From NCBI RefSeq assembly GCF_003260195.1, contig NZ_QEIH01000001.1, forward strand, positions 1 to 64,000: DNA of 64,000 nt, written 5' to 3'. The first letter of the stretch is position 1, and every line of letters starts with the position of its first letter. This document shows, piece by piece, positions 12,621 to 63,132 of this stretch. Under the pieces are notes generated by a model that was given only the letters and a program-made list of their open reading frames with translations, made no database searches and was not told the DNA's origin. This DNA is from Lutibacter citreus (GTDB lineage: Bacteria; Bacteroidota; Bacteroidia; Flavobacteriales; Flavobacteriaceae). Both the position numbers and the translations under genes were made by a program.

Positions 12621-12654
12621 TTGAAAATTACCTCCTTATAGTTGTATTTTATCT
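12621..12654 (-). promoter_or_regulatory. GGTAA-type operator upstream of the VOC-GH16 operon
   Basis: On the - strand this reads AGATAAAATAC, then AGGAGGTAATTTTCAAC and CAATAT. It aligns almost base for base with the element at 52694-52721. TTTTG lies about 35 bases nearer the gene (12589-12593) as a possible -7 remnant. Confidence 0.5.
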
Positions 12655-13305
12655 TACTATTGAAATAATCATTTATTTTGGATTGAAAAAAAATAAATAA
12701 TTGGAAAATGAGTTTTAATTGCTTGTTAATGAATTATTTATTTATACGGTTTTTAAGTGATAAAACAATTATAAAGTACATTAAACTTATGTAGAAAGAT
12801 GTTTCTGATTGTATAGATAAAAATGTTTACTGGGTACCTTAAATAACCCTTATAAATTAGCTAACCTTTCCAATAATTCAAAGTCTTCAAGTATTGAAAA
12901 ATTAACTAGAAAACATATTTAAGAATTAACATTTAAGTAGAATTTTTTAAAGGACTTTCATTAATAAAAAGTTTGGAAAAACATACGTAAATCTTAAAAA
13001 ATCTAAAAAATAGGGAGGTAAAATCGGATTAATTAGGGGTAAATTTTATAAATATTTTAACGAAAATATATGCTCTATTTGCATATAAGAATTATCTGTA
13101 ACTGAAAATTAGTAATTTATTTCTAATGTAAACAATAAGGAATATATTTTTAAAAACGTATTAACATTCAGTTATATAGGATTTTAAGAGTTTAATTGAG
13201 CTGTGTTAACAAAAAGGTGGATTCTTAAAAAACTTAAGAGTTTAAAAAATGAATACTTAACTCAATTTTAAAAAAGATTAAAAAAAATAAACTAAAGTTA
13301 ATCGG
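12655..13305. other. Long AT-rich intergenic region before susC
   Basis: No gene is seen. It contains a GGTAA operator pair (13017 and 13038), a TATTTG box (13076-13081) and a leader of about 220 bases. The leader carries a 12-bp direct repeat TTAAGAGTTTAA at 13184-13195 and 13234-13245, and a near-inverted pair TTTAATTGAG (13191-13200) and CTCAATTTTA (13261-13270). Confidence 0.6.
13013..13081 (+). promoter_or_regulatory. Candidate operator and promoter of susC
   Basis: GGTAA at 13017 and GGTAAA at 13038 are direct repeats 21 bp apart, with GGATTAATTA between them. TATTTG (13076-13081), a degenerate -7 box, lies 33 bases after the inner repeat. The layout resembles the element before the aldolase at 63011, which also has 21-bp spacing. 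Confidence 0.5.
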
Positions 13306-16300
13306 ATGAAAATTAAAAAATCATTATTATTTAGAAGAGTAAAAGCAAATTATTTGCTATTTACCTTATTTGCATTACTGTGTAGTTTTAATATACAAGC
13401 GCAAAAAATTACTGTAAAAGGTGTTGTTTCTGATAGCAGTGGTCCAATGCCGGGTGTTACTGTTTTGGTACAAGGCACTTCAAATGGAACAACAACTAAT
13501 TTTGATGGGGAGTACACAATTAATGCTAAAATTGGGGAAGTTCTTCAATTTAGCTTTCTTGGTATGATAAGTCAATCATTAAAAATAAAATCTGAAACAT
13601 TAAATGTTATTTTAACATCTGATATTTCAGCCTTAGAAGAAGTTGTAGTGATTGGATATGGAACTGTTAAAAAGAAAGAGTTAACAGGTGCCGTTACACA
13701 GGTGAAAGCTGAGGATTTAGAAAAGATTATTTCAGCAGATTTGGGAGATGTTTTACAAGGGCAAGCAGCTGGTGTAAATGTTATTAGTTCATCAGATCCA
13801 GGAGGTGCTTCAGAAATTTTAATTAGAGGTATTACAACCTTGGGAGATAACACACCTTTGTATGTGGTTGATGGAATTATTCAAGAAAGCGACCCTAGAA
13901 TCGCGCCAAGTGATATTCAAACTATTGATATTTTAAAGGATGCTGCTTCAACGGCTATTTATGGTTCTCGTGGTGCAACTGGTGTAATTTTAATTACAAC
14001 TAAACAAGGTAAAGAAGGATCTTTACAAATTAGAACAAATGCTAGTTTTGCAATTCAGCACAGAAATGCTGCAAACCCTTTAATGAATTCTTTAGAGCAA
14101 TCTTATTTTAATATTGTTACACAACGTAATGTGGTTGGTGCTTATGATGATGATGTTGTTTTAAGAATGGCAAATTCAAAATATAGTTTTCAGAATGAAA
14201 CAGATTTGAATGACATTGTATTTAGAAATGATGTTCCTACTCAAAATTACAACACTAACATTTCTGGAGGAACAAAAGATATTACTTACAATGTATCTAT
14301 GGGGCTTTTTGATCAAGAAGGTTTAATGGTTAATTCTGGTTTTCAGCGTTTTAGTACACGTGCTAATACTGTTTACAAAAAGAATAAGTTAAGAATACAG
14401 ACAAGTACAGGTATTACAATTGAAAAAAGAGATATTCCTCAAAATAGTTTAATTGTTCAGTCTATAAAATATTTTCCAACTCAAAATACAATTGATTTAG
14501 ACGATTCTGGTGATTTAGAAACATTAGGAGGTGATGACTCTAACAGATTAGGTTGGGTTTTAAATAGTTTAAAAACTACTGATAATTCTAAAACAGTAAG
14601 AACAAATACTTCTGTTAAAATAGATTACGAATTGATAGAAGGTTTAAGACTTTCGGCAAATGGAGGTATTACAACAATGAATTCTACGCGTAAAAGGTTT
14701 GTTCCTTATCAATTAATAACAAATCTTCAAAACGGTACTACAAGTAATCCTTCAGATAGCTCTATAAGAATGACTTCTGATGATAGAACTTCTTATAGTT
14801 TAGATGTTGGTGCAACGTACCAAAAAGAAATTGGAGATCATAAAATAACAGCAGCGGCATATATAACTTCAGAACAATATGAGTATGAAGGTTACTATGC
14901 AGAAAGAGCTGGAGTTATTGACCCAGATATTCAAGTTTTAAACGCAGGGACACTTGAAATGGATGTGGGTTCAAGTACTGGTTATACTGATAAGTTAATT
15001 GGTACAATTGGAAGACTTCAATATGATTATAAAGGAAAATACTTATTAAGTTCAAGTATTCGTAGAGACGGATCATCAAAATTTGCACCAGGTAATAAAT
15101 GGGGGGTTTTTCCATCTGTAGCTGTTGCATGGAATGTTTCAGATGAAAACTTTTGGAGTTCTTTAAAAAGTACAGTGAATAATTTTAAAGTAAGAGCTTC
15201 TCAGGGTTCAGTAGGAAATCAAAGAATACAATCTTACCAGTTTTCAGCAGGGATAGAACAAAATGTTGATTATGTTCTTACAAATGCTAATGGGGAAGAA
15301 ATACTTGGTGGTGGAGCAACACAAACTAGTTTTGCCAATGAATTATTAAAATGGGAAACTACAACTCAAACTAATATTGGTGTTGATTTAGGGTTGTTTA
15401 AAAATAAATTAACCATATCTGCAGAATACTATACTACGGATAAGGAAGATATGTTATTCCCAGTAATTTTATCACCTTCTGCAGGTGGGGGTTCTAATGC
15501 TCAAGTTGTTTTAAATATAGGGAATATGACTAATAAAGGAGCTGAAATTTCTGTTGGTTATAGAGGAAAAGCAGGAAAGGTAAATTACAGAATGAATGGT
15601 ACTTTTTCAACTAACAAAAATGAAATCACAAATATTAACGGACAAAGTGATTTCTTATTTACAAATGATTATGGTTTAATAAGTGGAGCAAAAGATCAGT
15701 CTCAAGTTACCGCATTGGCTTTAGGTCATGAAGCAGGAGCATTTTATTTGTTAACTACCAATGGAATTATTGATACGGAAGCAAAACTACTTGATTATCA
15801 AAAATTAGTGCCTAGTGCAAGAATGGGTGATGTTATATTTAACAATACCAATGGTGATGATAAAATTGATAATAACGATAGAGTTTATAGTGGTAGCGGA
15901 TTACCTGATTTTGAAATTGGATATAACTTTAATGCAAATTACAAAGGTTTTGATTTTGCAATGAACTGGTATGGTGCTTTTGGTCAAGAAATTATGAACG
16001 GAGCAAAAGCAACAGCATATGCTTATGGAAGACATAAAGATTTAATTTACCAATGGTCACCTCAAAATACAGAAACAACAATTCCTGCTTATAGAGGAGA
16101 TCTAAAAAAACACCCTAACTTTATAGGTTATAGTGATTTATGGTTGGAAGATGGTTCTTATGTTCGATTAAAATCTGTAACTGTAGGTTATAGTTTATCA
16201 AAAAAAGCATTGGAAAAATTAGGGTTTTCAAAGCTTAGATTTTATGTAAGTGCACAAAATCCTTTTACAATAACAGACTATTCTGGGTACAATCCAGAAG

Positions 16301-16389
16301 TAGGTGGTGGTATTACAGCAAGAGGACTTGATAAAGGTGTAGGGCCTGCTTCATCTCAATACTTGCTTGGGTTAAACTTTAACTTTTAA
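13306..16389 (+). CDS. susC: SusC/RagA family TonB-dependent outer-membrane transporter
   Basis: 1027 residues with a signal peptide ending near NIQAQ (about 33). A carboxypeptidase-regulatory-like domain follows (ITVKGVVSDSSGPMPGV, about 35-110), then the TonB box and plug start (EEVVVIGYGTVKKKELTGAV, about 116-136), the plug (to about 250), and a 22-strand beta-barrel ending in the aromatic QYLLGLNFNF. It imports oligosaccharides across the outer membrane using TonB energy, in complex with SusD encoded 12 bases downstream. It is the only SusC in the window, so it probably serves the whole galactan locus. A long leader separates it from its putative promoter, leaving room for post-transcriptional control. 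Confidence 0.97.
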   Translation: MKIKKSLLFRRVKANYLLFTLFALLCSFNIQAQKITVKGVVSDSSGPMPGVTVLVQGTSNGTTTNFDGEYTINAKIGEVLQFSFLGMISQSLKIKSETLNVILTSDISALEEVVVIGYGTVKKKELTGAVTQVKAEDLEKIISADLGDVLQGQAAGVNVISSSDPGGASEILIRGITTLGDNTPLYVVDGIIQESDPRIAPSDIQTIDILKDAASTAIYGSRGATGVILITTKQGKEGSLQIRTNASFAIQHRNAANPLMNSLEQSYFNIVTQRNVVGAYDDDVVLRMANSKYSFQNETDLNDIVFRNDVPTQNYNTNISGGTKDITYNVSMGLFDQEGLMVNSGFQRFSTRANTVYKKNKLRIQTSTGITIEKRDIPQNSLIVQSIKYFPTQNTIDLDDSGDLETLGGDDSNRLGWVLNSLKTTDNSKTVRTNTSVKIDYELIEGLRLSANGGITTMNSTRKRFVPYQLITNLQNGTTSNPSDSSIRMTSDDRTSYSLDVGATYQKEIGDHKITAAAYITSEQYEYEGYYAERAGVIDPDIQVLNAGTLEMDVGSSTGYTDKLIGTIGRLQYDYKGKYLLSSSIRRDGSSKFAPGNKWGVFPSVAVAWNVSDENFWSSLKSTVNNFKVRASQGSVGNQRIQSYQFSAGIEQNVDYVLTNANGEEILGGGATQTSFANELLKWETTTQTNIGVDLGLFKNKLTISAEYYTTDKEDMLFPVILSPSAGGGSNAQVVLNIGNMTNKGAEISVGYRGKAGKVNYRMNGTFSTNKNEITNINGQSDFLFTNDYGLISGAKDQSQVTALALGHEAGAFYLLTTNGIIDTEAKLLDYQKLVPSARMGDVIFNNTNGDDKIDNNDRVYSGSGLPDFEIGYNFNANYKGFDFAMNWYGAFGQEIMNGAKATAYAYGRHKDLIYQWSPQNTETTIPAYRGDLKKHPNFIGYSDLWLEDGSYVRLKSVTVGYSLSKKALEKLGFSKLRFYVSAQNPFTITDYSGYNPEVGGGITARGLDKGVGPASSQYLLGLNFNF

Positions 16390-16401
16390 TAAAACATAAT
16401 T

Positions 16402-18147
16402 ATGAAACATATAATATTTAAATATATACTATTAATTTTTGCAGTGAGTTTCTTAAGCTCTTGCGGTGATGAGTATTTGGATGAAAAAAATCCAAATGAA
16501 ATAGCTAAAGATAATTATTGGAGAAATTTATCTGAAACTGAAAAAGGATTAAATTCAGCATATCATACTTTAAATGTGCCAGCTTTGGTAAGTATAATTG
16601 AAGAGGCTCAAAGATCTGATATGGCATGGCCAGCGTATGCACGTCCTGTTCCAGGAACAATTAGCGAATTTTATAACCAAACGTATTCTAATAGTACTCC
16701 TGCAATTGCTAGTAAATGGGAAACTAACTATTTAGGTATTTTTAGAGCAAATCAGGTTATTGAAGGGTTAAATACTATAAAAGGAACAGTAGATGATGTT
16801 GAGTGGACTTCCCAAATGGCGCAAGCTCGTTTTTTAAGAGGTTTATTTCACTGGTATTTATATTCAACATTTAATAATGGTAGTATAATTATTCGTGATT
16901 ATGCACCAGTTACAAATGAAGATTTTAATAAAGGATTGTCTCCAGCTTCTGAGGTATTAGCATTCCTTAGAGAAGATTTAGAATATGCCTATGCAAATTT
17001 ATATGCTAAAGGTGAATACCCAAATGCATATGATGTAAATAGGGTTACTTCAGGTGCAGCAGCAACTGTTTTAGGTACTACGTATTTAATGGAGTTAAAT
17101 TATTCAAAAGCAATGGAATATTTTACAGATGTATTAAACAGTGGTGATTATGCATTGGAATATGATATGGCTAAATTATTTACAACTGCAGGTGAGTTTA
17201 ATCAAGAATCTATTCTTGAAATAAGTTATAATAATACGTTAAAACCAGAAGCAAACCTTTGGAATGGTGAAACTGTTACTAACAGGTTAAATCAGTTAAC
17301 AACAGGAACTGTAGGAGCTAATGCACCAACTTGGTTGGCATATAAATATAAAACAGAGCCAATGGATATTTTAGATGATAGAAATTATTATGTAAATGAA
17401 GATGGTGTTAGATTGCTTAGAAATGTACCATTAAGATGTTCAGCTATGATGGCTGTAATTGAAGATGGTCAAACGCCATATTATTTAACAAAATCAGTTT
17501 CTGAATATTCAAAATTTGGGGCAAATAACTGGGGTATTGGCTGGCATAAGAAATTCTCAAATCATGATATTGTAGAAAATGAAAATGATTTACCATACGG
17601 AACAACACAATCTGGTAAAAATGTAACTTTAAATAGATTGGCTGAAGTAATGTTAATGCAAGCTGAATGTTTAATTAAAACAGGTGATGGAGAAGGAGCT
17701 ATGCTACTTATGAATGAAATAAGAAAAAGATGGGGATTAGAGTTAATTGGTGAATCTGGATCAGATGTATCACATTCATATGACGAAAATACTTATTCTT
17801 TAGATGAATTAATGGAACATTTAATGTATGTTGAAAAACCTCTAGAAATGTCTTTAGAAGGTCATGCAATACGTTTTTTAGATTTAAAAAGATGGGGGAT
17901 AATTAAAGAGAATTTTAAAAAATTATCTGAACAAACATATTATGCAACTACGTATTTTTACACAAATTCAGAAGGAAAAGCAGCGAGTAAATGGAACTCT
18001 TCTGTAGTAAAAGAATTACCTACAACTGGGGTGCCTCAGGTTATTGATTTTGAATACGATATTCCTTATTCAAATTATAATGAAGCCTTACATAGTACTT
18101 TTCCAATCCCATTAACAGAGATTAATGCAAATACAAATATTAACTAA
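16402..18147 (+). CDS. susD: SusD/RagB family glycan-binding lipoprotein
   Basis: 581 residues with lipobox LSSC near residue 20. The acidic CGDEYLDE just after the Cys resembles the Bacteroidota surface-export signal. The N-terminal SusD-like helical domain and C-terminal RagB domain are typical, with motifs such as ARFLRGLFHWYLYSTFN, RLAEVMLMQAECLIKTGD and FLDLKRWGI. It caps SusC on the cell surface and binds incoming oligosaccharides. It starts 12 bases after susC and is followed 13 bases later by a third lipoprotein gene. Confidence 0.97.
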   Translation: MKHIIFKYILLIFAVSFLSSCGDEYLDEKNPNEIAKDNYWRNLSETEKGLNSAYHTLNVPALVSIIEEAQRSDMAWPAYARPVPGTISEFYNQTYSNSTPAIASKWETNYLGIFRANQVIEGLNTIKGTVDDVEWTSQMAQARFLRGLFHWYLYSTFNNGSIIIRDYAPVTNEDFNKGLSPASEVLAFLREDLEYAYANLYAKGEYPNAYDVNRVTSGAAATVLGTTYLMELNYSKAMEYFTDVLNSGDYALEYDMAKLFTTAGEFNQESILEISYNNTLKPEANLWNGETVTNRLNQLTTGTVGANAPTWLAYKYKTEPMDILDDRNYYVNEDGVRLLRNVPLRCSAMMAVIEDGQTPYYLTKSVSEYSKFGANNWGIGWHKKFSNHDIVENENDLPYGTTQSGKNVTLNRLAEVMLMQAECLIKTGDGEGAMLLMNEIRKRWGLELIGESGSDVSHSYDENTYSLDELMEHLMYVEKPLEMSLEGHAIRFLDLKRWGIIKENFKKLSEQTYYATTYFYTNSEGKAASKWNSSVVKELPTTGVPQVIDFEYDIPYSNYNEALHSTFPIPLTEINANTNIN

Positions 18148-18160
18148 AAAAAGATACAGA

Positions 18161-19855
18161 ATGAAAAATATAGGAATAGTATCAATACTTTTCGGTTTAC
18201 TTTTTTTAGTAGGCTGTGACGATGATGAATACGCAGATTATTCGGCACCTGATCAATTATCAGATGTGTCTTGGTATATGAGTGTTGACCCTTACTCTCA
18301 AGATAAATATAGTATATCTTCAAATACATTTATTTCATTTTTAGATTTATCTCAAGGAGCAGTGAGTCATGAATGGATTATTGAAGAAGGAAACTCATTT
18401 TTAAAAGAAGGTTTTAATAAGAATGATTCTTTAGAGTTATTTACTGATGAAGCTGCCGGTTTAATAATTGATAAAGGTAAAGCACATGTTTTATTTAGAA
18501 ATAGTGGATTTAATAAAGTTAGATTGGTAAATAAATTTACAGAAAAAGTAAGTTATAATTCAGAAGAAAGTCCTCTAGAAGCTTTTCAAGAAGGTGATCT
18601 TTGGGTAATTGACACTATATTTACTTTTGATGTATATGGAAAATTAATGCCTTCTTTTAAAATAATGCAGGGAGATACAGAAATTATAAATATAACCAAA
18701 GATGATTTACCATCGATTGATGATGCAGCATCTTGGCCAACTGTTGAGGTTGAAGCAGGGTCATTTTTAACGTATGTAGATTTAACAACTGAAGATAGAC
18801 CTAGCGGAAGGTCTTGGTCTGTGGCTGATGGAGCTCCTGTAACTTCAGGGTTGGAGTCTGCAGATATAAAATTTTTCAAATTAGGAACATATCCAGCAGG
18901 GGAAATTAAATCTGTACGTTCGGGTAATTTACCAAGCGCAAATACAATAAAAATTATACCATTAAATGTAAGGGTAATTCCATCATCTCAACCCTTTGAG
19001 ATAAGTGGAATTATTAAAGAAAGTATTGATGAAAAAATATCATTTCAAGTTTCAGGTGAACTACAACCATTTACTGGTGAAGAAGGTAATTTCACTGTAA
19101 ATGTTAAAAATGAAACTACTGGATTTGATCAAAACATTGCTGTACAAACAGCAGGAGTTAGAAATGATGATGCTACTTATTTAGAATTGAAATTAGCAGC
19201 ACCAATTTATAATTCTGATGTTATAACAGTTTCTTACAGTGGTGGAAGTATTAAATCAACAGATACAAGAGATTTATTAGACTTTGCTAATAAACAAGTG
19301 GTAATGTATTCTGCAGGTAATATTTTAGCTCCAAATAGTTGGTCTGGTTTTGAAGTAGCAGATGCTAACATTAAAAAAGCTTATGCTGGTCCTGGAAGTT
19401 CATTTTGGGTAGGTGCAAATGGTACTGATGCAGATCCTTTCTGGGCAAGAACTATTGAAAAAGCAAATACAGGCGATGCTAGTATGAGATTTTCAGTTGA
19501 TGGAATTGATAAAACTTATCAAATTCATACTTATGGATTGGGTACAATTGATAAAATTCCAGCAGGAACTTATAAAGTATCTTTCATGGTTTATTTAGAA
19601 GAAGGAAACACCATGGGTGGTTTCTGGACTTGGGGTGGAGAAGTTATTCCATTAGCTTCAGAATTATGGAGCTTTGATGGATTACCAAGAGGTGAATGGG
19701 TAAAAATGGAGCACGTTATTACGACTGATGCTTTAGATGTAAAAAAGAAAGTTTCTATAGTTATTAATACAGGAGCAAATCCAAACGCTAGTTCTGGAAG
19801 ACAAACAATGTATTTAGATGATTTTTCTTTTGTAGAATTAGAAGCAAGACAATAA
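18161..19855 (+). CDS. SusCD-linked surface lipoprotein with C-terminal carbohydrate-binding-like domain
   Basis: Start ATG 18161 (MKNIGIVSILF) is preferred over upstream in-frame codons because it gives a proper lipoprotein signal with lipobox LVGC. The following CDDDEYADY is a strong acidic surface-export-like sequence. The product has 564 residues. The N-terminal half looks like PKD or Ig-like beta domains (about 30-190 and 190-380). The last 170 residues (about 390-560: PNSWSGFEVADAN, TYKVSFMVYLEEGN, MYLDDFSFVEL) resemble a CBM4/22-like jelly roll. It takes the place of SusE/F glycan-binding proteins. The true fold needs structure prediction. Confidence 0.85.
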   Translation: MKNIGIVSILFGLLFLVGCDDDEYADYSAPDQLSDVSWYMSVDPYSQDKYSISSNTFISFLDLSQGAVSHEWIIEEGNSFLKEGFNKNDSLELFTDEAAGLIIDKGKAHVLFRNSGFNKVRLVNKFTEKVSYNSEESPLEAFQEGDLWVIDTIFTFDVYGKLMPSFKIMQGDTEIINITKDDLPSIDDAASWPTVEVEAGSFLTYVDLTTEDRPSGRSWSVADGAPVTSGLESADIKFFKLGTYPAGEIKSVRSGNLPSANTIKIIPLNVRVIPSSQPFEISGIIKESIDEKISFQVSGELQPFTGEEGNFTVNVKNETTGFDQNIAVQTAGVRNDDATYLELKLAAPIYNSDVITVSYSGGSIKSTDTRDLLDFANKQVVMYSAGNILAPNSWSGFEVADANIKKAYAGPGSSFWVGANGTDADPFWARTIEKANTGDASMRFSVDGIDKTYQIHTYGLGTIDKIPAGTYKVSFMVYLEEGNTMGGFWTWGGEVIPLASELWSFDGLPRGEWVKMEHVITTDALDVKKKVSIVINTGANPNASSGRQTMYLDDFSFVELEARQ

Positions 19856-19879
19856 TATATTATAATAATAATTTTAGAA

Positions 19880-19915
19880 GAAGCTGTTTAATTACTTTTT
19901 AAACAGCTTCTTTTT
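19880..19915 (+). terminator. Terminator of the susCD operon
   Basis: GAAGCTGTTTAA (19880-19891) and TTAAACAGCTTC (19899-19910) form a perfect 12-bp stem with a 7-base loop, followed by TTTTT. The rest of the 376-base gap to 20231 holds the operator at 20085-20110 and is otherwise plain AT-rich DNA. Confidence 0.9.
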
Positions 19916-20084
19916 AATATTACAACAATTCATCTTGTGTTATTTGTAATTGTAGTTTCAATTTCAAAATAGAAGTAGGATCTATTTGTTGTATTAATTT
20001 TATATTTGAGTGGAGTTGATAAAAAAAGTATAGAATACTATATAGTTGCTTATTTATATCAACTCATTTTTATCATTAATAATT

Positions 20085-20110
20085 GGTAATATTATCAATT
20101 CTGAGGTAAT
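20085..20110 (+). promoter_or_regulatory. GGTAAT direct repeat upstream of the catabolic operon
   Basis: GGTAATAT occurs at 20085 and again at 20105, 20 bp apart, about 120 bases before the cycloisomerase start. It matches the repeated element seen before other PUL units, though no good -7 box follows at the expected distance. Confidence 0.4.
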
Positions 20111-20231
20111 ATTTGATTTGTTTAAGATAAATATTAAGATTAATTAATGTAGTGTATCTAGTAATTTTATCATCAGTAAATAATGTTTTGTTTACAAATG
20201 ATTTAGACTCAACTAACAAAAAGAATAAATT

Positions 20232-21389
20232 ATGACAATTGAAAAAATAGAAACCTTTATCTTAAAAGATACTTTATCAAAAAGTTTCTTCTTTTCGCAA
20301 TGGGAATATTCCGAAAGATGTATTTGTGTTGTAAAAGTAACCGCGTCAAACGGACAATATGGATGGGGAGAAGGTTATGGCCCAGCTACTGTTTTAGAAG
20401 CTGGAGTTAAATTATTAGCGCCTCACGTTGTAGGATTAAACCCTTTAGAGAATGAGGTTATTTGGAACCATATGTACCGAAAAACATTGGATTTTGCAAG
20501 AAGAGGTGTTCTTGCAGCATCCATAAGTGCTATTGATATTGCTATATGGGATTTAAAAGGTAAAATTTTAGGATTACCAGTTTCAACTTTGTTAGGTGGA
20601 GCATTAAGATCTGAAGTAAGACCTTATGCAACTGGTTTGTACTTTACAAATTATGAAAATCCGGAAGAAGGCTTGGTTGAAGAAGCTAAGTTGTATGTAA
20701 AACAAGGGTTTAAGTCTATGAAGATGAAAGTCGGATTAGGTATAAAAAAGGATGTTGAGATTGTAAAAAGTATACGTGAAGCTATTGGTCCAGATATTGG
20801 ATTAATGGTAGATTCTAATCACGCATATACTTTAAGAGAAGCTGTAGATTTAGCTAGAAAGATTGAAAAATATGATATCGGTTGGTTTGAAGAACCAATT
20901 TCACCAGAATTTTATGAGCAATCTAGAGAATTAAGAAGTAAAACAACAATTCCTATTTCAGGAGGTGAATGTGAATATTTTAGATTTGGATTTCAACAAT
21001 TAATCAAAAATAAATCTGTAGATATTATTCAGCCAGATATTTGTGCAAGTGGAGGTTTAACTGAAGCTAAAAGAATTTCAGCAATTGCAAGTGCCAATGG
21101 AGTGGATATTATTCCGCATACTTGGGGAACTTCAATAGGAATTCATGTGGCATTACATTTTATTTCTAATTTAGAATCAATTCCAGGAAGAATGTACACT
21201 CCAGAATTTTTAATGGAATATGATCAAACTGAAAATGGGTTAAGAGAAAAATTAACTTTTCCAAAAATTGAAATGAAAAATGGTATGATTGAAGTACCAA
21301 CCAGACCAGGTTTAGGAATAGATGTTGATGAAAATATTTTAAATGAATATGCTATTTCTAAAAATGTTATTGAAAGTTCATTAGTTTAA
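20232..21389 (+). CDS. Enolase-superfamily sugar-acid cycloisomerase, probable 3,6-anhydro-D-galactonate cycloisomerase
   Basis: 385 residues, cytoplasmic. It has the N-terminal capping domain and C-terminal TIM barrel of the mandelate racemase subgroup. The metal ligands are exactly spaced: Asp194 (MVDSNHAY), Glu220 (WFEEPIS) and Glu246 (SGGECEY). Lys164 and Lys166 form the KxK base pair (KMKVG), and Asp269 with His296 (PHTWGTSIG) form the opposite dyad. It is followed 16 bases later by an aldehyde dehydrogenase. Known bacterial anhydrogalactose pathways use such an enzyme to open 3,6-anhydrogalactonate to 2-keto-3-deoxygalactonate. The D-isomer (DauB-type) is inferred from the GH127/GH129-like genes. 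Other acid-sugar dehydratase activities remain possible. Confidence 0.88.
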   Translation: MTIEKIETFILKDTLSKSFFFSQWEYSERCICVVKVTASNGQYGWGEGYGPATVLEAGVKLLAPHVVGLNPLENEVIWNHMYRKTLDFARRGVLAASISAIDIAIWDLKGKILGLPVSTLLGGALRSEVRPYATGLYFTNYENPEEGLVEEAKLYVKQGFKSMKMKVGLGIKKDVEIVKSIREAIGPDIGLMVDSNHAYTLREAVDLARKIEKYDIGWFEEPISPEFYEQSRELRSKTTIPISGGECEYFRFGFQQLIKNKSVDIIQPDICASGGLTEAKRISAIASANGVDIIPHTWGTSIGIHVALHFISNLESIPGRMYTPEFLMEYDQTENGLREKLTFPKIEMKNGMIEVPTRPGLGIDVDENILNEYAISKNVIESSLV

Positions 21390-21405
21390 CTATAAAAAAT
21401 TAAAA

Positions 21406-22860: not shown

Positions 22861-22989
22861 AGTATTGTCAATTTGCTGAAAGATATATTTGAACATTTAA
22901 AAATATAAGTATTCAATGTATTTCTAGGTTTAGAATGAATAGTTTTAATGAAATAACAAGTTAATTAAACAACTAATTTATAATATTAT

Positions 22990-24110: not shown

Positions 24111-24127
24111 TAAAAATACATATAATC

Positions 24128-36403: not shown

Positions 36404-36470
36404 TATATCAATTTAATAAATATTTGATATTGGAAAATTATAAATACTTATCTTTTTTAACTTGCTATAT

Positions 36471-36498
36471 TTTACCTTTAAATATTACCTGTTTATCT
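36471..36498 (-). promoter_or_regulatory. GGTAA operator pair upstream of sulfatase-GH16 operon
   Basis: On the - strand CAGATAAACAGGTAATATTT is followed by AAAGGTAAAATATAGC. The two GGTAA units (+ strand TTACC at 36472 and 36485) are 13 bp apart, and AGATAAA precedes them as in the elements at 45295 and 52695. Confidence 0.5.
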
Positions 36499-40192: not shown

Positions 40193-40370
40193 GTTTTTAA
40201 TCTTTAGTGATGTTTTCTAATTCTTATCTAAATGAAGAAAAGCTATTTGTATTAACATTTATAAAAGTACTAGAAGCAACGAGTTTTAACTAGCTTAATT
40301 TTATCTTTAATTATTACAAGGTTATCTATTTTATAAAAATTTAAACATATAATGGATTACTAAAAAGTAC

Positions 40371-45254: not shown

Positions 45255-45321
45255 CAAAGATAGTATTTATAATAGGGTAATTAATTAGCAAAATTTACCT
45301 TTTAATTACCTTATTTTATCT
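45255..45321 (-). promoter_or_regulatory. GGTAA operator and promoter of first GH127
   Basis: On the - strand AGATAAAATAAGGTAATTAA is followed by AAGGTAAATTTTGC. The two GGTAA units (+ strand TTACC at 45306 and 45295) are 11 bp apart. TATCTTTG (45262-45255) is a perfect TAnnTTTG box about 31 bases further, 49 bases before the ATG. Confidence 0.6.
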
Positions 45322-52655: not shown

Positions 52656-52721
52656 CAAAATAACTCTATTTTTTTTAAAGAATATTGGTGAAATTTACCC
52701 TCACTTAACCGTATTTTATCT
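52656..52721 (-). promoter_or_regulatory. GGTAA operator and promoter of the GH127-MFS operon
   Basis: On the - strand AGATAAAATACGGTTAAGTG is followed by AGGGTAAATTTCACCAATAT. The paired units are 11 bp apart. TATTTTG (52662-52656), a -7-like box one base short, lies 31 bases beyond the inner GGTAAA. Confidence 0.55.
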
Positions 52722-52766
52722 TTAAGTTATTTTAGTCTTAAAAACAACCAATTAAAAGCTGAATAA

Positions 52767-53624
52767 TTAGATAGTTTGTCTATAACCTTTTGGTGTACAA
52801 TTCATAATTTGTTTAAATTGTTTATTAAAATTGGTAATAGAGTTGTAGCCAACAATATAACAAACTTCAGAAACGGGTAAACTACCTTGAATTAATAACC
52901 GAGTAGCATTTCTAATACGGACTTCATTTAAAAATTGGGTAAATGATTTGTTTGTCATTTTTTTAAAAAATCTACAAAAAGAATTTGTTGTCATACAAGC
53001 AATTTCAGCAACATCATTTAGTCCAATATAACTAGCGTAATTATCAGAAATGTATTTTAAAACAACATCTATTCTATCCGAATTTTCTGAAGTGTATTGG
53101 CGCATGTCAGATGAAGATAATACTGTTTTGTCATCAGTAGTTGAAAGCCTGTTAAGAATGTCTAATAATTTAATGCTTTGTAATGCTGGGTTTAAATTTG
53201 AAAGTTCCATAATTTCATCGTGTAGACTTTTGCTAGTATCATTTCCAAAGCAGATTCCGTATTTTGACTCTTCAAGCATTTTATTAATCTCTGAAAATTC
53301 TGGATTGTCAAAGGTACCTTCACCAATAAAATTTTTATTGAATTTAGTTACAATGGTTTTTACACTAACAGAATCGTCTCCAGTGTAGTAATTAGCATCA
53401 TTTCTCCATAAATGAGGTAAATAAGGCCCAACAAGTACTAAATCTCCTGGTGAAAACTGAGAAACACTGTCTCCTACAAAACGGATTCCAGTACTTTTAG
53501 AAATGTATAAAAGTTCATATTGAGAATGGTAGTGCCATGCGGCATCTAAACAAGGTACTTCCTTTTTTAGAATATTTATTCTGGTGTTAGCAGAATGGTC
53601 TGTGTTTTTTAATACTAATTTCAT
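52767..53624 (-). CDS. AraC family transcriptional regulator
   Basis: 285 residues with an N-terminal cupin sensor (about 15-110, WHYHSQYELLY and FSPGDLVLVGPYLPHLW) and a C-terminal double helix-turn-helix (about 190-285: GLNDVAEIACMTTNSFCRFF and VSEVCYIVGYNSITNFNKQF ending CTPKGYRQ). AraC proteins bind direct repeats about one or two helical turns apart and often activate sugar genes when ligand is bound. The GGTAA repeats in this locus have that spacing, making this gene the best candidate to bind them. It follows the TPR-LuxR gene by 43 bases and precedes the GH127 operon. Confidence 0.93.
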   Translation of the reverse strand: MKLVLKNTDHSANTRINILKKEVPCLDAAWHYHSQYELLYISKSTGIRFVGDSVSQFSPGDLVLVGPYLPHLWRNDANYYTGDDSVSVKTIVTKFNKNFIGEGTFDNPEFSEINKMLEESKYGICFGNDTSKSLHDEIMELSNLNPALQSIKLLDILNRLSTTDDKTVLSSSDMRQYTSENSDRIDVVLKYISDNYASYIGLNDVAEIACMTTNSFCRFFKKMTNKSFTQFLNEVRIRNATRLLIQGSLPVSEVCYIVGYNSITNFNKQFKQIMNCTPKGYRQTI

Positions 53625-53667
53625 AATTCACACATTTAATTGTTATAACTTAAGCTGGTTAACTTTT

Positions 53668-55305
53668 TTATATATTAGAAATAAACTGTTTTAAGTTTAC
53701 CTCTCTTGTAATGTTTAATTTTTTTCTTAATCTACTTCTTGTTGTATGAACACTTTCAATAGACATATTTAATAGTTGTGCTATATCTTTACTTGAAAAA
53801 TTTAATTTAATTAAGGCGCACAATTTTTGATCGTTCATAGTTAAATTAGGGAAGTCGGATTCTAATTTTTTGTAAAAACTTTTATTTATAGAAACAAATC
53901 TTGCTTGAAATTCATTCCAGTTTTCATTTTTTCTGTTTGATATAGAGTTGATGATTTTTTTAGAAATGTCATGTATTTCTGAAACATTATTTTTTGAAAG
54001 TTTGTCTTTAATTTGTTCTAAGAGAACATCCTTTTCAATTAATTTTAATACAGAGGTTGCCAATTCTTTGTTTTTTAATTCAATAACTTCTTTGTCTTTC
54101 TGTTTTTCTAACTCTCTTTCTTTCCTCAATAGTTTTTTTTCTACTCTATGTTTGGTTCTTAAACTTCTAAAAGAAATTATTCCAAATAAAATTAAAAAAA
54201 TAACAATTCCCCAAAGTAATAGTTTTTCTAAAAACGCTACTTTTTCTTCATGTTCAAATTGTTTTAATTTTTGTTCTTGTAAAAACTTGGCTTGACCTTC
54301 TTTTTCTTTCCTAAATTCATCTTGAATTTCTAATAAGGGAGCATTATTAACACTTCTACTATCAAAAAAAATAGCATCTAAGTCTTTGGCTTTTTTTAAA
54401 GCACTGTACGCTTGTAAATATTTCTCTTTTGAAAAGTAGAGATTTGAAAGTGCTTGATAAATTAAAGGAACAAAATCTTTATGAGCATTTTTTAGTTTTG
54501 AAATTTCTATTGCTTTATTATAACAAAACTTACTTTTAATAAAATTTCCTTTATTCTGGTAACTATCTCCTAAATACTTATAAATTAATACTTGATAGCT
54601 ATATTGGCTTTCAATAAATTTAGGGATAAGTTTGTTAAATAATTCAATTGCAGCATCATCTTTACCTTTATGACTAAGAAGTACGGCTTCTTCAAATTTT
54701 AAAAAATTTTCTTTATTTTTTTCAATTCTAGGGTTAAAATAAAGCTTACAGCTATCTAAGTATTTCTCTCCTAATTCAAAATTATTTAATTCTCTATAAG
54801 TAGCTGTAAAGGCCAAATAATTATCAACTAATTTATTTGCATCAATTTTACCATTTTTAACTAATTTCTTTTTTATATCTAAAGATAGGTTTAAAAAATA
54901 TAAGGCTTTTTCTTTTCTGTGATAATAGCTATAATGCCGCCCAATTTCCCTATAAATTAAGGATTTAGTATTCTTTTCATTGGTTATGTCAGCTAAAATT
55001 AGAGCCGCCCATAATTTATCATAAGATTTTTTGTGGTTTCCTTGGTGACTATAAACACGTGCTAATTTATTTAAAATTCTAATTGCCTGTATTGTGTCTC
55101 CTTCATTAATAAAATTGTTAAAAGACAATTCTAAAGAGTTAATAGAATCTGAGATAATATTTTCTTGATCTTTTAATATGAAATCTTCTTGTTGGAATAT
55201 GTTTGTGTTTTGAAATGAAAAAACAACAGACCAATGTAGCAAAACAATTAGAAAAGTAATTGTTAAGGTAATTTTGTGCCAGTGTTTATTTATATTTTTA
55301 TTCAT
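53668..55305 (-). CDS. Membrane-anchored TPR-LuxR family regulator (copy 2)
   Basis: 545 residues: signal anchor (about 10-32), TPR-like repeats (about 60-330), membrane segment LLLWGIVIFLILFGIISF (about 362-380), coiled coil with KELATSVLKLIEKD (395-440), and a LuxR-type HTH (KLCALIKLNFSSKDIAQLLNMS, SIESVHTTRSRLRKKLN, about 485-535). Same architecture as copies 1 and 3. With no kinase or receiver domain, it is likely a one-component transmembrane regulator. It is followed by the AraC gene and probably co-transcribed with it. Confidence 0.91.
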   Translation of the reverse strand: MNKNINKHWHKITLTITFLIVLLHWSVVFSFQNTNIFQQEDFILKDQENIISDSINSLELSFNNFINEGDTIQAIRILNKLARVYSHQGNHKKSYDKLWAALILADITNEKNTKSLIYREIGRHYSYYHRKEKALYFLNLSLDIKKKLVKNGKIDANKLVDNYLAFTATYRELNNFELGEKYLDSCKLYFNPRIEKNKENFLKFEEAVLLSHKGKDDAAIELFNKLIPKFIESQYSYQVLIYKYLGDSYQNKGNFIKSKFCYNKAIEISKLKNAHKDFVPLIYQALSNLYFSKEKYLQAYSALKKAKDLDAIFFDSRSVNNAPLLEIQDEFRKEKEGQAKFLQEQKLKQFEHEEKVAFLEKLLLWGIVIFLILFGIISFRSLRTKHRVEKKLLRKERELEKQKDKEVIELKNKELATSVLKLIEKDVLLEQIKDKLSKNNVSEIHDISKKIINSISNRKNENWNEFQARFVSINKSFYKKLESDFPNLTMNDQKLCALIKLNFSSKDIAQLLNMSIESVHTTRSRLRKKLNITREVNLKQFISNI

Positions 55306-55504
55306 CTTAAAAATAAAAGCTCGTAAAGTATTGATTTTTATGCCTAAACTAATATATGGCAGAATACTTAATCAAGTGTAGTTTTAAGTGTTAAATATAT
55401 AAATGTTTAGTTTTTATTTAGTTTTTTTTGTTTTAGTTTTAATAAATATGGTAATATAGAACTGAAAATATTCATTTTTCACTTAAGGTGAGAGTTTAAT
55501 TTAT

Positions 55505-55597
55505 AAAAAAAGGCTGTCTGAAAAGCGAAATTTTAATCATTATCAATTTGTTTCATAATGACTAGTTTTAAGCCTTTTTAGACAGCCTCTTTTTTAT
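55505..55597. terminator. Large-loop terminator after the LacZ-type GH2
   Basis: GGCTGTCT (55512-55519) pairs with AGACAGCC (55580-55587), extended by AAAAG/CTTTT, flanked by A and T tracts on both sides. The loop of about 50 bases is long. The rest of the 314-base gap 55306-55619 is AT-rich and shows no gene. Confidence 0.65.
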
Positions 55598-55619
55598 TAG
55601 AGTTGTTATTTTAAAAGAT

Positions 55620-58895
<3,276 letters not shown>

Positions 58896-59054
58896 TTATA
58901 TAATAAAGCTATACAACAGAAATTGATTTTTTTTACATTTTAATTTATAATTTACCAAATTAGTACGTTTTTTTGTACCAAACAATAATGTTCAGTTTAT
59001 ATCTAGTTAAAAAAAAGAATCCATGGCTTTAATATAATTTTACTTCAACTATAA

Positions 59055-61148
59055 TTAGTTTACACTTATTTTAAACTTACCTTTTTTAATAGTTCCGTTT
59101 TTAAATTTAACTTGATATCCATAGCCTGGAATTGTAATTCCATCTAGTGTAGTTTGTTTTACAGGTCCTAAATTAACGATTACTTCTGTATTAGAAGCAA
59201 AGGTTGTTTTTTGAAGTTTAAAATCGAGTGATAAATATTCATGACTTACTAGTTCTTCAAAGAATGTTTCTCTATGAACCGGACTTACAGTTTCATTTGC
59301 CATTTTAATCATGTCTTTCATTCCTTCAAATTCATAAGGAGAAAAGAAAATTGTTGTACCTAATCCAAAAAGCATGTTTCTTAAAGATTTAACTCTAAAA
59401 TCTCCATTAGATGACATTTGATTGTCCGGATCTTGAATTTTACCATATACGGCAATAGCATCATGATAAACAAGGTTGAATAGTGGAGCTCTATGAGAAA
59501 TTTGGGCCATTGGAGTAGAATGACCATAAGTCATTCCTTCAAACATATCAAAATATGGAATCCATTGTTGTTGACCATGTTCTGTTCCGTTAACCAAATT
59601 TTTAGAGTCAATATATTCAGCAAGAGCTCTAATTCCTTTATCGTATTTTTTATCATATCTAGCAAATGAAATATCCGTTATATCTGCTTCTAATCCTAAT
59701 GCTTCAATTTCTTTATGTAAACTTTTTTTAATCAATCCAACTTGTAATGCTGGATCTACACGTGCCCATCTACTTCCAGCATTCACCAGTTTTTCTTTAT
59801 TATCTTTTTCAAAAAGGTTAATATTAAAGTCTGGATCATTTTCTAAAATTGGTGAGTAGGCGTGATATGATGAATATAAATATCCGTATTTTTTTGTTAA
59901 GTCAACAGCTTTTCGTAATTCTTTAACACCTCCTAATTCTTTACTAATAGGCCAGCAATTTGGTGCGAAATTAGAGAATGTACCCCAAGCATGGATAAAT
60001 GCATTATCAACCTTTAACTCATCATGAGTAATTTTAAGAATGTTTTGTAAATCTTTAAATGTAAAGGCCATATTTGGCATGTTTACATAATGAGGATAAC
60101 CACCATATAAACCCATGTATAATGCTCCTTGTAATTTAGATACATTAGGATTGTTTTTTGCTTTATCTTTTAATGAAACAAAATAACCTCTTTCAATAGC
60201 TTCTTTTCTGTAAGTTTTAGCCATATCTACATAGTTGCCACCTTTAATGAAATGATAGCTTATCCGCTTTTTTTCTTTTGAATTATTTAGTGGCCAAACT
60301 GGATCTAAAAATTCGATACGCTTATTAGGAGACATTTTTCCTTCAGCGTTATATAAGTATTGACCGTTGTTATTTATGTTGAAAAACATATTGGCATCAG
60401 TTGATTTGTCTAAAATCCCCATTACAGCAGATTTCTCATTGTAAGTTCCCCACCAAGGCATTGATAATCCACTTCCATTTGTGAAAAGAGGTAATTTACC
60501 AGTAGATTTATGTACATATGTAGCGTCATCCCACATACAGAAAGAACCTCCATTCATTGGGAAAATATATGAAGGACAAATTAAACCTTGTTTTTGAGGG
60601 ATAACAGCAGCTCCTTTATCAACATCGGTTTCTAGGCTGAATGCTCTTGCAGGATATCTTAATTCAACTAATTTATAATCTCCACCTTCATATGAAATTA
60701 TTTCAATATCTATTTTTGAATTGATATCTGTTAAACGGATTTCAGTTTTAATTGATACTCCTTCAGCAACAGTGTTATTTTTAAAAACTGGATTACTAAA
60801 GTTAATATTAACTGTTGAATCATCTTTCTTTGAAACTTCAATTGATTTACTATTTGAAATATTAATAGTTTGCTTTTTTCCTTTTGAATCAATAATTGTA
60901 AGTAATCCTGCAGCATTTTCCCAAGGGTCAGCTTTCCAAATTTGTCCAGATTCCTTTTCTGTAACTTGAAAAGATCCGCTTTTTCCATCAACTACAACTT
61001 TTATAGTAGAATTCTCTAAAATAGCTGATTCTGAACTTGAGTTTTGTTCAGTCTTTGTTTTATTTGATGTGCAACTTTGAATGAGCATCAAACAAAAAAT
61101 CACAAGTGTAAAACTTGTGATTTTTAGTATTCTTTTTGTACTTATCAT
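59055..61148 (-). CDS. GH129/DUF5696-like glycoside hydrolase, candidate alpha-3,6-anhydro-D-galactosidase
   Basis: 697 residues with lipobox IQSC at Cys26. An N-terminal beta-sandwich (about 45-290) precedes a TIM-barrel-like domain (about 320-600) with acidic clusters ADITDISFARYD, NGTEHGQQQW and YFDMFEGMTYGHS, followed by a small beta domain. The fold resembles GH129 (related to GH101). A GH129-like enzyme is known as an exo-3,6-anhydro-D-galactosidase in carrageenan degraders, and this gene follows the KDG-type kinase and KDPG-type aldolase genes, supporting that role. Catalytic Asp residues cannot be fixed without alignment. A terminator-like hairpin lies within codons 8-18. Confidence 0.75.
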   Translation of the reverse strand: MISTKRILKITSFTLVIFCLMLIQSCTSNKTKTEQNSSSESAILENSTIKVVVDGKSGSFQVTEKESGQIWKADPWENAAGLLTIIDSKGKKQTINISNSKSIEVSKKDDSTVNINFSNPVFKNNTVAEGVSIKTEIRLTDINSKIDIEIISYEGGDYKLVELRYPARAFSLETDVDKGAAVIPQKQGLICPSYIFPMNGGSFCMWDDATYVHKSTGKLPLFTNGSGLSMPWWGTYNEKSAVMGILDKSTDANMFFNINNNGQYLYNAEGKMSPNKRIEFLDPVWPLNNSKEKKRISYHFIKGGNYVDMAKTYRKEAIERGYFVSLKDKAKNNPNVSKLQGALYMGLYGGYPHYVNMPNMAFTFKDLQNILKITHDELKVDNAFIHAWGTFSNFAPNCWPISKELGGVKELRKAVDLTKKYGYLYSSYHAYSPILENDPDFNINLFEKDNKEKLVNAGSRWARVDPALQVGLIKKSLHKEIEALGLEADITDISFARYDKKYDKGIRALAEYIDSKNLVNGTEHGQQQWIPYFDMFEGMTYGHSTPMAQISHRAPLFNLVYHDAIAVYGKIQDPDNQMSSNGDFRVKSLRNMLFGLGTTIFFSPYEFEGMKDMIKMANETVSPVHRETFFEELVSHEYLSLDFKLQKTTFASNTEVIVNLGPVKQTTLDGITIPGYGYQVKFKNGTIKKGKFKISVN
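61095..61125 (-). other. Terminator-like hairpin inside the GH129-like signal peptide codons
   Basis: AAAAATCACAAGT (61113-61125 read on -) and ACTTGTGATTTTT (61095-61107 read on -) form a perfect 13-bp stem with a 5-base loop, ending in a T run. It lies 24-54 bases into the coding sequence and could attenuate transcription between the kinase and GH129-like genes. Confidence 0.6.
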
Positions 61149-61227
61149 ATTAAAAATTCAATAATTAATTATTTTCTAAATGAAGAAGTAACTAATTAGA
61201 AAAATTTTAGTACTCCTTTTTGTTTTT

Positions 61228-62316
61228 CTATCTTACAACTCTACCAGATCCAGAACCGCCCATAAGAGCCTCCACTTCAGCACGTGTTGAATAATTAAAA
61301 TCACCTTTTATAGAGTGTTTTAAGCAAGATGCAGCAACACCATATTTTACGGCAGTTGCAGAATCACTTAATTCTGGAGTGTTTAATGCGAAAATTAAAC
61401 CTCCGGCAAAAGAATCTCCTCCACCAACACGGTCTACAATATTTTTAATTTTGTATGATTCGTAGTTTCCTTCAGCATCTAATGGTGCAAATGAAGGTGT
61501 ATCTGTAGCCGCTTCGTAAAGCATTGCTCCCCAGTTGTTATGTGAAGCAGATAAGCTTTCGCGTAAAGTAATTGCTGCTTTACTAACGTTTGGAAATTGT
61601 GCAACAACTTGGCGCGCAACATCTGGATATCTAGAAGTATCTAATTTACCCGAATGTACATCAGTATCCCCAGCTCTAATTCCTAAAACATCATAACAAT
61701 CTTCTTCGTTTCCAATAACAACATCAATAAACGGTAAAATTTTACGCATTGTTTCTTGTGCTAATTCACGAGCGGATTTAGATGTATCCCATTTCCAAAG
61801 TTTTCCTCTAAAGTTTAAATCAATTGAAACTTTTGCTCCAGCTGCTTGTGCTTTTTGAGCCGCAACTAAAGTAGCTTCAGCGGCATTTTTAGATAATGCA
61901 GGTGTAATTCCGCTTAAATGTAGCCAACCAGCACCTTTAAAAATTTCAGTCCAATTATAAGCACTTGCAGGAGTAATAGCAATAGCAGAATCTTCTCTAT
62001 CGTAAATAACATTGCTTGGGCGTTGGTTTGCTCCAGTTTCTAAAAAATAAGTTCCTAAACGACCATTGTCTGTTCTTAAAACATATTGCGTGTCAATACC
62101 AACTGAACGAACAGCATCCATTGTAGCTTCAGCTAACGCATGTTTTGGTAATGCAGTTACGTAACGAGCTTTTCCTCCAAAATTACAAATAGATGCAGCA
62201 ACACTGGCTTCAGCACCAGCATAAGTCACTTCTAATTGACGCGCTTGGCGTAAACGTAAATTTCCAGGGGCCGCTAAACGTCCCATTATTTCTCCAAAAG
62301 TTACAATTGTTTTCAT
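61228..62316 (-). CDS. PfkB family sugar kinase, probable 2-keto-3-deoxy-D-galactonate/gluconate kinase
   Basis: 362 residues, cytoplasmic. N-terminal TFGEIMGRLAAPG, sugar-binding YAGAEASVAASICNFGG (about 31-47) and the PfkB signature DRVGGGDSFAGG with catalytic base Asp301 identify a ribokinase-fold kinase of the KDG kinase group. It phosphorylates 2-keto-3-deoxy sugar acids with ATP. Located between the aldolase (23 bases upstream gene) and the GH129-like gene, it fits the DauC step after the cycloisomerase at 20232. It could equally serve the alginate branch, which yields KDG. Confidence 0.9.
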   Translation of the reverse strand: MKTIVTFGEIMGRLAAPGNLRLRQARQLEVTYAGAEASVAASICNFGGKARYVTALPKHALAEATMDAVRSVGIDTQYVLRTDNGRLGTYFLETGANQRPSNVIYDREDSAIAITPASAYNWTEIFKGAGWLHLSGITPALSKNAAEATLVAAQKAQAAGAKVSIDLNFRGKLWKWDTSKSARELAQETMRKILPFIDVVIGNEEDCYDVLGIRAGDTDVHSGKLDTSRYPDVARQVVAQFPNVSKAAITLRESLSASHNNWGAMLYEAATDTPSFAPLDAEGNYESYKIKNIVDRVGGGDSFAGGLIFALNTPELSDSATAVKYGVAASCLKHSIKGDFNYSTRAEVEALMGGSGSGRVVR

Positions 62317-62339
62317 GTATATATTTTTTAATTTCTTTG

Positions 62340-63011
62340 TTATCCTCTAATTTCTTTAACTAAATCTGTTATTTCTTTTGCATTTTTTGTTATTTGATCC
62401 CAGTTTTCGGCAAGGATTAAATCACGTTTTGCAATCCAAGAGCCTCCAATTGCTGAAATTAAATTAGATTCTAAATAACTTTTTGCATTTGCCATATTTA
62501 CTCCACCTAATGGAATGTATTTAAGGCCTAAATATTGGTATGGAGCACCCATATTCACTAAATGATTCATTCCTCCTGAAGATTCTGCAGGGAAATATTT
62601 TATAACTCTACACCCTTGTTCAACTGCCATTTCAATATCTGTTGGAGTCATAACACCAGGTGAAAAAGATAAGCCTAATTTAATAGCTTCTGCAATAATT
62701 TTAGGGTTACAACCAGGAGATACTGCAAAATCTGCACCTACATCAGATACCGCTTTTACTTGATCAATAGTTAAAACAGTTCCAAATCCTAAACAAACTT
62801 GTGGTAATTCTTTTTTAATGGCTTTTGCAGCATCTAAAGCTGCTGGAGTTCTAAGGGTAAGTTCAATTGTATCTATACCTCCTTTTAAAAGAGCTTTTGC
62901 TACAGGAACTGCATGTTTTACATCGTCAATAATAAGCATAGCTATTATACCGGCTTTATCAACTTTGTTGATGATTTCAGGAGACATAGCCTTTTGTTCA
63001 ATTGGATACAT
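62340..63011 (-). CDS. KDPG/KDPGal aldolase
   Basis: 223 residues, full length for class I KDPG aldolases. Glu50 (IDTIELTLRT), phosphate-binding GFGTVL and SPG, Schiff-base Lys138 (CRVIKYFPAES) and C-terminal PLGGVN are all present. Met9 (MSPEIINKV) is an alternative start. It cleaves 2-keto-3-deoxy-6-phospho sugar acids to pyruvate and glyceraldehyde-3-phosphate, the DauD-type final step. First gene of an operon with the kinase and GH129-like gene. It differs in sequence from the partial aldolase at the left edge, consistent with separate galactonate and gluconate branches. Confidence 0.92.
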   Translation of the reverse strand: MYPIEQKAMSPEIINKVDKAGIIAMLIIDDVKHAVPVAKALLKGGIDTIELTLRTPAALDAAKAIKKELPQVCLGFGTVLTIDQVKAVSDVGADFAVSPGCNPKIIAEAIKLGLSFSPGVMTPTDIEMAVEQGCRVIKYFPAESSGGMNHLVNMGAPYQYLGLKYIPLGGVNMANAKSYLESNLISAIGGSWIAKRDLILAENWDQITKNAKEITDLVKEIRG

Positions 63012-63105
63012 ATGTTTTTTAGTTTTAAATTATTTTTCAGTTGAAAAGTTAAGATAATTATTCATTACAAAAAAAGCACATATAACCGATCTAAGATTCG
63101 TATAA

Positions 63106-63132
63106 TTTACCTTTTAATCGCATAAAATTACC
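63106..63132 (-). promoter_or_regulatory. GGTAA operator pair upstream of the aldolase operon
   Basis: On the - strand AGGGTAATTTTATGC is followed by GATTAAAAGGTAAATTAT. The two GGTAA units are 21 bp apart, the same spacing and inner GATTAA as before susC. TTTG (63071-63068) lies about 35 bases further. Confidence 0.5.

Follow-up and report, generated by a model that had tools for sequence, protein, structure and literature searches.

In class-II activation by AraC (at araI1-I2) and RhaS/RhaR of Escherichia coli, half-sites of ~17 bp, which are direct repeats at 21 bp in araI, place the proximal half-site against a promoter element. Those activators work with sigma-70 boxes, whereas the promoters considered here carry the -7 box of the Bacteroidota. 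A 21-bp direct-repeat architecture is already known in Bacteroides from the regulons of the AraC-type regulator RhaR (PMC3870299) and of the hybrid two-component system (HTCS) regulators of B. thetaiotaomicron (PMC3878776), for which a dimer occupying a single DNA face has been proposed. Published work portrays carrageenan breakdown by marine Bacteroidota as a complex regulon whose genes are scattered; in that report, deletion of the AraC-family gene cgrA (ZGAL_3159) of Zobellia galactanivorans delays and reduces growth on carrageenan, and its accessible text gives no DNA element (PMC5698469). Here we describe an element in the first 64,000 nt of Lutibacter citreus contig NZ_QEIH01000001.1 (hereafter the window; 31% GC, host genome size 5.1 Mb), where seven, perhaps eight, gene groups appear from their upstream regions to share one DNA switch. 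The elements are very probably activator operators of a carrageenan regulon, of class-II type and bound by the CgrA-like AraC activator (hereafter CgrA) encoded at 52767-53624 on the minus strand.

The window holds a red-algal galactan locus encoding glycoside hydrolases (GH) of families GH127 (three), GH16 (three), GH2 (two) and GH29 (one), six sulfatases and a SusC/SusD pair, together with permeases, the AraC gene, tetratricopeptide repeat (TPR) proteins and homologues of the anhydrogalactose pathway (an enolase-superfamily protein at 20232, an aldehyde dehydrogenase at 21406, a pfkB kinase at 61228 and a 2-keto-3-deoxy-6-phosphogluconate (KDPG)-type aldolase at 62340). Around the AraC gene stand genes for DagB, sulfatases, GH127 enzymes, an aldolase, a kinase, a dehydrogenase and an enolase-superfamily protein, which together represent a carrageenan gene set, and DagB (59055-61148) matches the solved 3,6-anhydro-D-galactosidase 5opq, which we take to be the Zobellia DagB enzyme of the published carrageenan work, with 1036 bits. 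Judged by gene set, the region is the counterpart of the Zobellia carrageenan locus ZGAL_3145-3159, with the same catabolic genes as the CgrA regulon and, likewise, an AraC gene within the locus (PMC5698469). An earlier reading of the sequence alone (hereafter the original prediction) had proposed a galactan polysaccharide utilization locus (PUL); the red-algal galactan gene set is indeed present, but the substrate can be specified as carrageenan.

The accepted operators precede the units starting at 12543, 13306, 20232, 36403, 45205, 52631 and 63011 and follow a common plan, in which RGRTAAAWT is followed at 21 bp by GRTAAWWT and then by a TAnnTTTG-like -7 box. The half-sites are direct GRTAAW repeats with a period of exactly 21 bp at 7/7 sites, and the -7 box starts 36 bp past the second (proximal) G, or 37 bp at 45205. 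The original prediction had correctly seen a TAnnTTTG-like box or TTTG downstream of the inner repeat unit, and its position proves sharper than claimed, TTTG lying 40-41 bp from the proximal G (40 bp at 12543, 13306, 52631 and 63011, and 41 bp at 45205), with TTTA (20232) and TTTC (36403) as variants. The GGTAA and TTACC words on which that prediction was built are present in the sequence, but the one at 52706 is not an exact TTACC (its letters are TTAACC). The proposed pair spacings of 11, 13 and 20 bp arise from extra GGTAA words, those of 11 and 13 bp lying within the 21-bp period, and 21 bp fits all seven sites. Since GATAAA stands at -21 relative to the proximal half-site before 12543, 36403, 45205 and 52631, AGATAAAATA, originally read as a separate box ahead of the pair, is the distal half-site.

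The exact full pattern, GRTAAW-N15-GRTAAW-N30-TNNNTTTG, has four matches in the 5.1-Mb genome, 4/4 inside the window. On the minus strand, the predicted operator-promoter at 63068-63132 precedes the 63011 unit (KDPG-type aldolase, pfkB kinase and DagB), with distal G at 63132, proximal G at 63111 and -7 box GCTTTTTTTG (score 42.1 with the matrix described below); that at 52656-52720 precedes the 52631 unit (GH127, major facilitator superfamily permease, GH16 and GH127), with distal GATAAA at 52720, proximal G at 52699 and box TTATTTTG (39.4); and that at 12589-12653 precedes the 12543-9249 unit (107-aa open reading frame (ORF), GH16, 118-aa ORF and sulfatase), with distal G at 12653, proximal G at 12632 and box TTCTTTTG (34.9). 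The fourth exact match, at 13017-13081 on the plus strand and scoring 39.8, lies upstream of the SusC/SusD unit at 13306; its distal half-site has G at 13017 and its proximal one at 13038, and the -7 box reads TCTATTTG. One mismatch is found at 20105-20169 (plus strand; pair 20105/20126, not 20085/20105; box TAATTTTA; 34.0), before the DauB-like 20232 and DauA-like 21406 genes, and at 36433-36497 (minus strand; distal GATAAA 36497, proximal GGTAAA 36476; 23.5), before sulfatase 36403 and GH16 34734. Upstream of the GH127 gene at 45205, the operator-promoter at 45255-45320 (minus strand; 28.4) has its distal GATAAA at 45320, its proximal GGTAAA at 45299 and box TATCTTTG one base farther. A weak candidate operator at 40262-40326 (minus strand; 17.4), absent from the original list, lies before sulfatase 40192, with the pair 40326/40305 and TTTA at the -7 place. 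Within the operator-preceded units, ORFs 10823-11179, 12220-12543 and 18125-19855 have no Pfam match; the last of these, directly after SusD, may encode a surface glycan-binding lipoprotein. In the 52631 unit, a TTG start listed at 52658 falls inside the -7 box proposed here (52663-52656); the ATG at 52631, used in the original prediction, fits better.

The half-site pair was first spotted by eye in the window, and both the -7 phase and a 67-column matrix were derived from other species, the matrix being built from 122 instances in their loci (L024-L081) with the window left out. Applied to 26 gene starts of the window, the matrix gives 23.5 to 42.1 for the seven units, 17.4 for 40192 and at most 3.7 for the remaining 18, with at most 3.9 in the reversed control of the same 26 regions. 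In a scan of the whole window, the seven sites are followed by 17.4 (40326) and 15.4 (35011, within a gene), while the reversed window reaches a maximum of 10.9 and 40 Markov-simulated windows a mean maximum of 9.0 and a highest value of 17.0. The seven sites (at least 23.5) thus exceed both controls for chance matches, and the 40192 site, next to the best simulated window, is at the edge of chance. Among the nine units named in the original prediction, these seven are retained, but the sites before 31944 (-13.2) and 58859/58886 (-6.8) fail the matrix test. Its statement that no paired element precedes the "alginate genes", which are chondroitinase-B-like and heparinase-like lyase genes at the left end of the window, is borne out by scores of at most 3.7 at starts 325, 2787 and 3931. 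Across the genome, the full pattern with at most one mismatch occurs in 14 places, six of them in the window, versus 10 for the reversed pattern, and there is therefore no enrichment outside the window when one mismatch is allowed. The single word GGTAAATTNNRYNAA has 23 matches genome-wide versus 32 reversed, and its share in the window (5/23) is partly circular, as the word had been taken from these very sites.

Searching with the AraC protein yielded 58 loci, comprising 496 upstream regions in stretches of up to 10 kb on either side, and the comparison with PULs of AraC relatives suggested in the original prediction revealed that PUL genes there are preceded by the same 21-bp direct repeat, likewise in constant phase with a -7 box. 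In the 496 regions, GRTAA pairs spaced by 21 bp number 148, against a mean of 2.15 per other spacing (6 to 45). The opposite strand of the same regions holds 33 such pairs, as expected with divergent neighbours, and the reversed sequence no more than 6 pairs at any spacing. In a word-free count, the top-ranking 5-mer pair is GGTAA/GGTAA at 21 (40/58 loci), with GGTAA/TTTGT at 40 in fourth place (34 loci); GGTAA/GGTAA at 21 has a count of 0 in each of three shuffles, which were chosen as the control for 5-mer pairs since reversal mirrors them. Among the 122 instances, drawn from 51/58 loci, TTTG is found at offset 40 in 67, with 7 at the next commonest offsets. Strict TAnnTTTG starts at 36 in 16 instances and at 37 in 5, the second-position A often being T, and no conserved TTTG is present among the 122 at the -33 place. 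Matrix hits of at least 17 are found in 157/496 regions and in 0/496 reversed regions, a count made with a matrix trained on the same loci, for which the reversed control and the window test are the independent checks. Hits precede 24/29 CgtA-type SusC genes, 19/28 DauB genes and 7/8 GH127c genes, and cgrA itself in 1/57 cases, indicating that cgrA is not generally autoregulated; in the window, the start of the AraC gene scores -8.3, with no operator before it. When sites farther upstream in two loci (L032 and L033) are included, 55/58 loci have a site, and those without one are an 8-kb contig (L036) and two loci with AraC relatives of 29% (L080) and 27% (L081) identity. Loci with relatives span the Flavobacteriaceae to the Saprospiraceae, Ancylomarina, Algoriphagus, Dyadobacter and Flexithrix.

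Across 397 Flavobacteriaceae genomes, AraC matches form two groups, whose best copies are 61-79% (besides the window's own) and 35-42% identical to the window protein. The first group (at least 61%) comprises 15 genomes, the window's own included, and the exact operator pattern is found in 14 of them (51 matches, 1 reversed). It is also present in 88/382 other genomes, and the reversed pattern has 33 matches in 28/397 genomes (counted from the listing). At least two matches are present in 13/15 close-AraC genomes versus 19/382 others (Fisher P = 4e-14), and 39/51 matches lie within 52 kb of cgrA (counted from the listings). Seven of those 19 (G001, G129, G184, G289, G334, G370 and G388) harbor a second-group AraC match, and all but G370 also a DagB homologue.

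Three Zobellia genomes (genus g2; G001, G236 and G388) allowed the predicted operators to be set against published induction. Their DagB proteins are 99%, 92% and 93% identical, respectively, to 5opq over 258 residues, and gene order and lengths in G001 fit ZGAL_3145-3159. The Zobellia and window AraC proteins share 39% identity, with nearly the same recognition helices (MT-T/P-N-S/A-FCR-F/Y-FKK and TNFN-K/R-QFK). In 3/3 Zobellia loci, matrix hits with scores from 14.3 to 40.5 stand upstream of four genes, the homologues of ZGAL_3147, 3150, 3157 and 3158; of these twelve sites, eight reach 17 or more, and reversed maxima range from 3.6 to 4.6. A distal SusCD pair, tentatively taken for cgtAB because its SusC is the best match to the SusC genes that follow 29 of the upstream regions in the AraC loci, has a site in 3/3 genomes (30.7-35.2), as does a distal S1_7-like sulfatase gene resembling cgsB2 (20.3-28.4). 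In the matrix scan of G001, no site above 10 precedes dagB or cgrA, and none was found before dagB or dauD in Zobellia. In the published data, log2 changes on anhydrogalactose are 3.3 for ZGAL_3147, 7.1 for 3150, 7.0 for 3157, 4.1 for 3158, 4.2-4.3 for cgtAB and 5.1 for cgsB2; 3151-3154 and cgrA show no significant change, and the monosaccharide does not induce cgkA (PMC5698469). The predicted Zobellia operators hence precede homologues of units reported there as anhydrogalactose-induced, with one kappa-carrageenase exception. Another gene considered as a possible kappa-carrageenase (L252) is an agarase A homologue and has no site. The operator plan before homologues of induced units is thus common to the window and three Zobellia genomes, but gene grouping differs, dauD-dauC-dagB having an exact operator in the window, and the AraC proteins share only the 39% overall identity given above. 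Moreover, the window SusC is just 29% identical to the Zobellia SusC under the same operator, so that the transporters (window pair 13306-18147) seem to have been exchanged beneath it.

The AraC protein has 285 residues and matches PF12833 (75.2 bits) and PF00165 (54.1 bits), both above cut-offs. Its C-terminal double helix-turn-helix (HTH) domain of ~100 residues, with seven helices at 181-284 in the structural model, matches the AraC, MarA and GadX domains. The N-terminal region may well form a cupin barrel, as in the ligand and dimer domain of the carbohydrate branch of the AraC/XylS family, in view of a Cupin_2 match of 21.9 bits (below the cut-off of 27.2) and modelled strands at 16-95 (mean predicted local distance difference test score 82.1), and fold matches of the protein include the RhaR regulatory domain (target template modelling score 0.65). 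All 24 sequences compared share W30, H31, H33, E37 and H71, residues that may point to a site for a ligand or a metal. A CgrA dimer would bind the two direct half-sites of ~17 bp, each consisting of an A box (GRTAAAWT) and a weaker B box, and the 21-bp spacing, equal to two turns, would bring both onto one DNA face. In Flavobacterium psychrophilum, TAnnTTTG has been mapped at -12 to -5 (PMC9723704). With this placement, the proximal half-site would occupy ~-48 to -32 and the distal one -69 to -53. The proximal half-site would then cover the position of the -33 element, for which these promoters show no conservation, and CgrA, placed as in class-II activation, would accordingly recruit primary-sigma polymerase. 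The signal is likely 3,6-anhydro-D-galactose or a closely related product, with the cupin-like domain as its sensor. Established computationally are the existence of the element, its period of 21 bp, its constant phase relative to the -7 box and its statistical tie to cgrA across genomes; CgrA binding, activation, effector and polymerase contact are what we infer.

Conservation over 58 loci and the Zobellia cgrA phenotype favor the original proposal of an activator operator for one PUL regulon with the AraC protein as the best candidate binder. Several observations weigh against this assignment. The kappa-carrageenase homologue of G001 (L247) carries a 21-bp GGTAAGAT repeat (15.7) even though cgkA is uninduced by the monosaccharide, and this lower-scoring repeat weakens a strict split by monosaccharide response. 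ZGAL_3153 and 3154 seem to lie downstream of 3157, yet are uninduced by the monosaccharide, and the pairing of the Zobellia genes relied on their order, length and homology. One genome (G323) encodes an AraC protein of 66% identity yet has no exact match, and the pattern in 88/382 genomes without a close AraC relative exceeds the reversed control, suggesting that related regulators probably use similar sites.

These similar patterns in genomes without close CgrA relatives, and the use of direct repeats ~21 bp apart by Bacteroides HTCS regulators (PMC3878776), raise the alternative that the sites are read by a different protein with an AraC domain, for instance a hybrid two-component regulator encoded elsewhere in the genome. 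We consider this unlikely, since the sites cluster near cgrA and follow it across genera, the window's genome has a single match to this AraC protein at E <= 1e-60, and cgrA deletion in Zobellia has a carrageenan phenotype (PMC5698469). The AraC protein itself is not an HTCS, having no kinase or receiver match. The Bacteroides RhaR and HTCS systems also differ in motif and substrate, HTCS proteins are membrane sensor kinases, and no fixed -7 phase is mentioned in the available parts of those reports. A SusR-type regulon, with direct repeats described as 67 or 77 bp apart, does not fit the 21-bp period found here among the spacings counted (6 to 45).

The TPR-LuxR proteins named in the original prediction as alternative binders (53668-55305 or 63190 to the end) have HTH-like C-termini, and one of the two genes lies 43 bp from cgrA. 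Homologues of these proteins are nevertheless found in only 9/58 loci, 45/49 loci without one have the site, and a 21-bp tandem of ~17-bp half-sites is a described AraC-type pattern, making binding by them highly improbable in place of CgrA. Least credible of all is that the repeats are relics of duplicated promoters or chance words with no regulator: the window has three GH127 paralogues and the single word is not enriched genome-wide, but the sites precede unrelated families (SusC, DauB, sulfatases, GH16, GH127 and DauD) in many genera and shuffles and simulations fall short, which contradicts this reading for the seven sites, although it remains applicable to 31944 and 58859 and may also apply to 40192.

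With CgrA as the proposed activator, the element provides a sequence rule for the carrageenan regulon, which in three Zobellia genomes points to homologues of the anhydrogalactose-responsive units and to the distal SusCD pair. With this rule, the part played by CgrA, its effector and the promoter geometry become testable, and the element would constitute a compact inducible promoter for the Bacteroidota. The CgrA operator and this first CgrA regulon map appear to be new, the operator not having been found in the accessible text of the open-licence literature searched, supplements excluded. Chances seem even that one carrageenan operator code stays readable across much of the Bacteroidota while its regulator drifts to 39% identity and genes reshuffle. 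If so, SusCD pairs, sulfatases and even dauD-dauC-dagB would gain or lose the operator, and the regulon would evolve through a 65-bp promoter cassette, either moved or newly made, with CgrA standing in place of the -33 element. Cassette scanning would then find distal and unknown carrageenan genes, such as a lactonase-like gene elsewhere in the genome. Outside the window, a same-plan site (L143; G000:C12:496409-496473; 28.3) lies 91 bp before an SMP-30/gluconolactonase ORF (PF08450), beside an HxlR regulator gene, and is possibly a distal regulon member or a chance match.

Related arrangements were also observed elsewhere. Many genomes that carry the pattern without a close AraC relative (for example G392, G038, G162, G218 and G142) present GATAATATAGTATNNNNNNTGGATAA followed by TAATTTTG, probably representing another AraC-type Flavobacteriaceae regulon, and a 2.4-kb stretch of G389 (C1:464625-466972) holds three exact matches, with no listed AraC match at E <= 1e-60. 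In Zobellia, an element of similar build with a 21-bp period occupies the gap between a divergent cupin-AraC gene and its DHDPS-family neighbour (L239, ~1277-1341; L240, ~1208-1272), so that the plan, with a different word, seems to serve a further AraC regulon.

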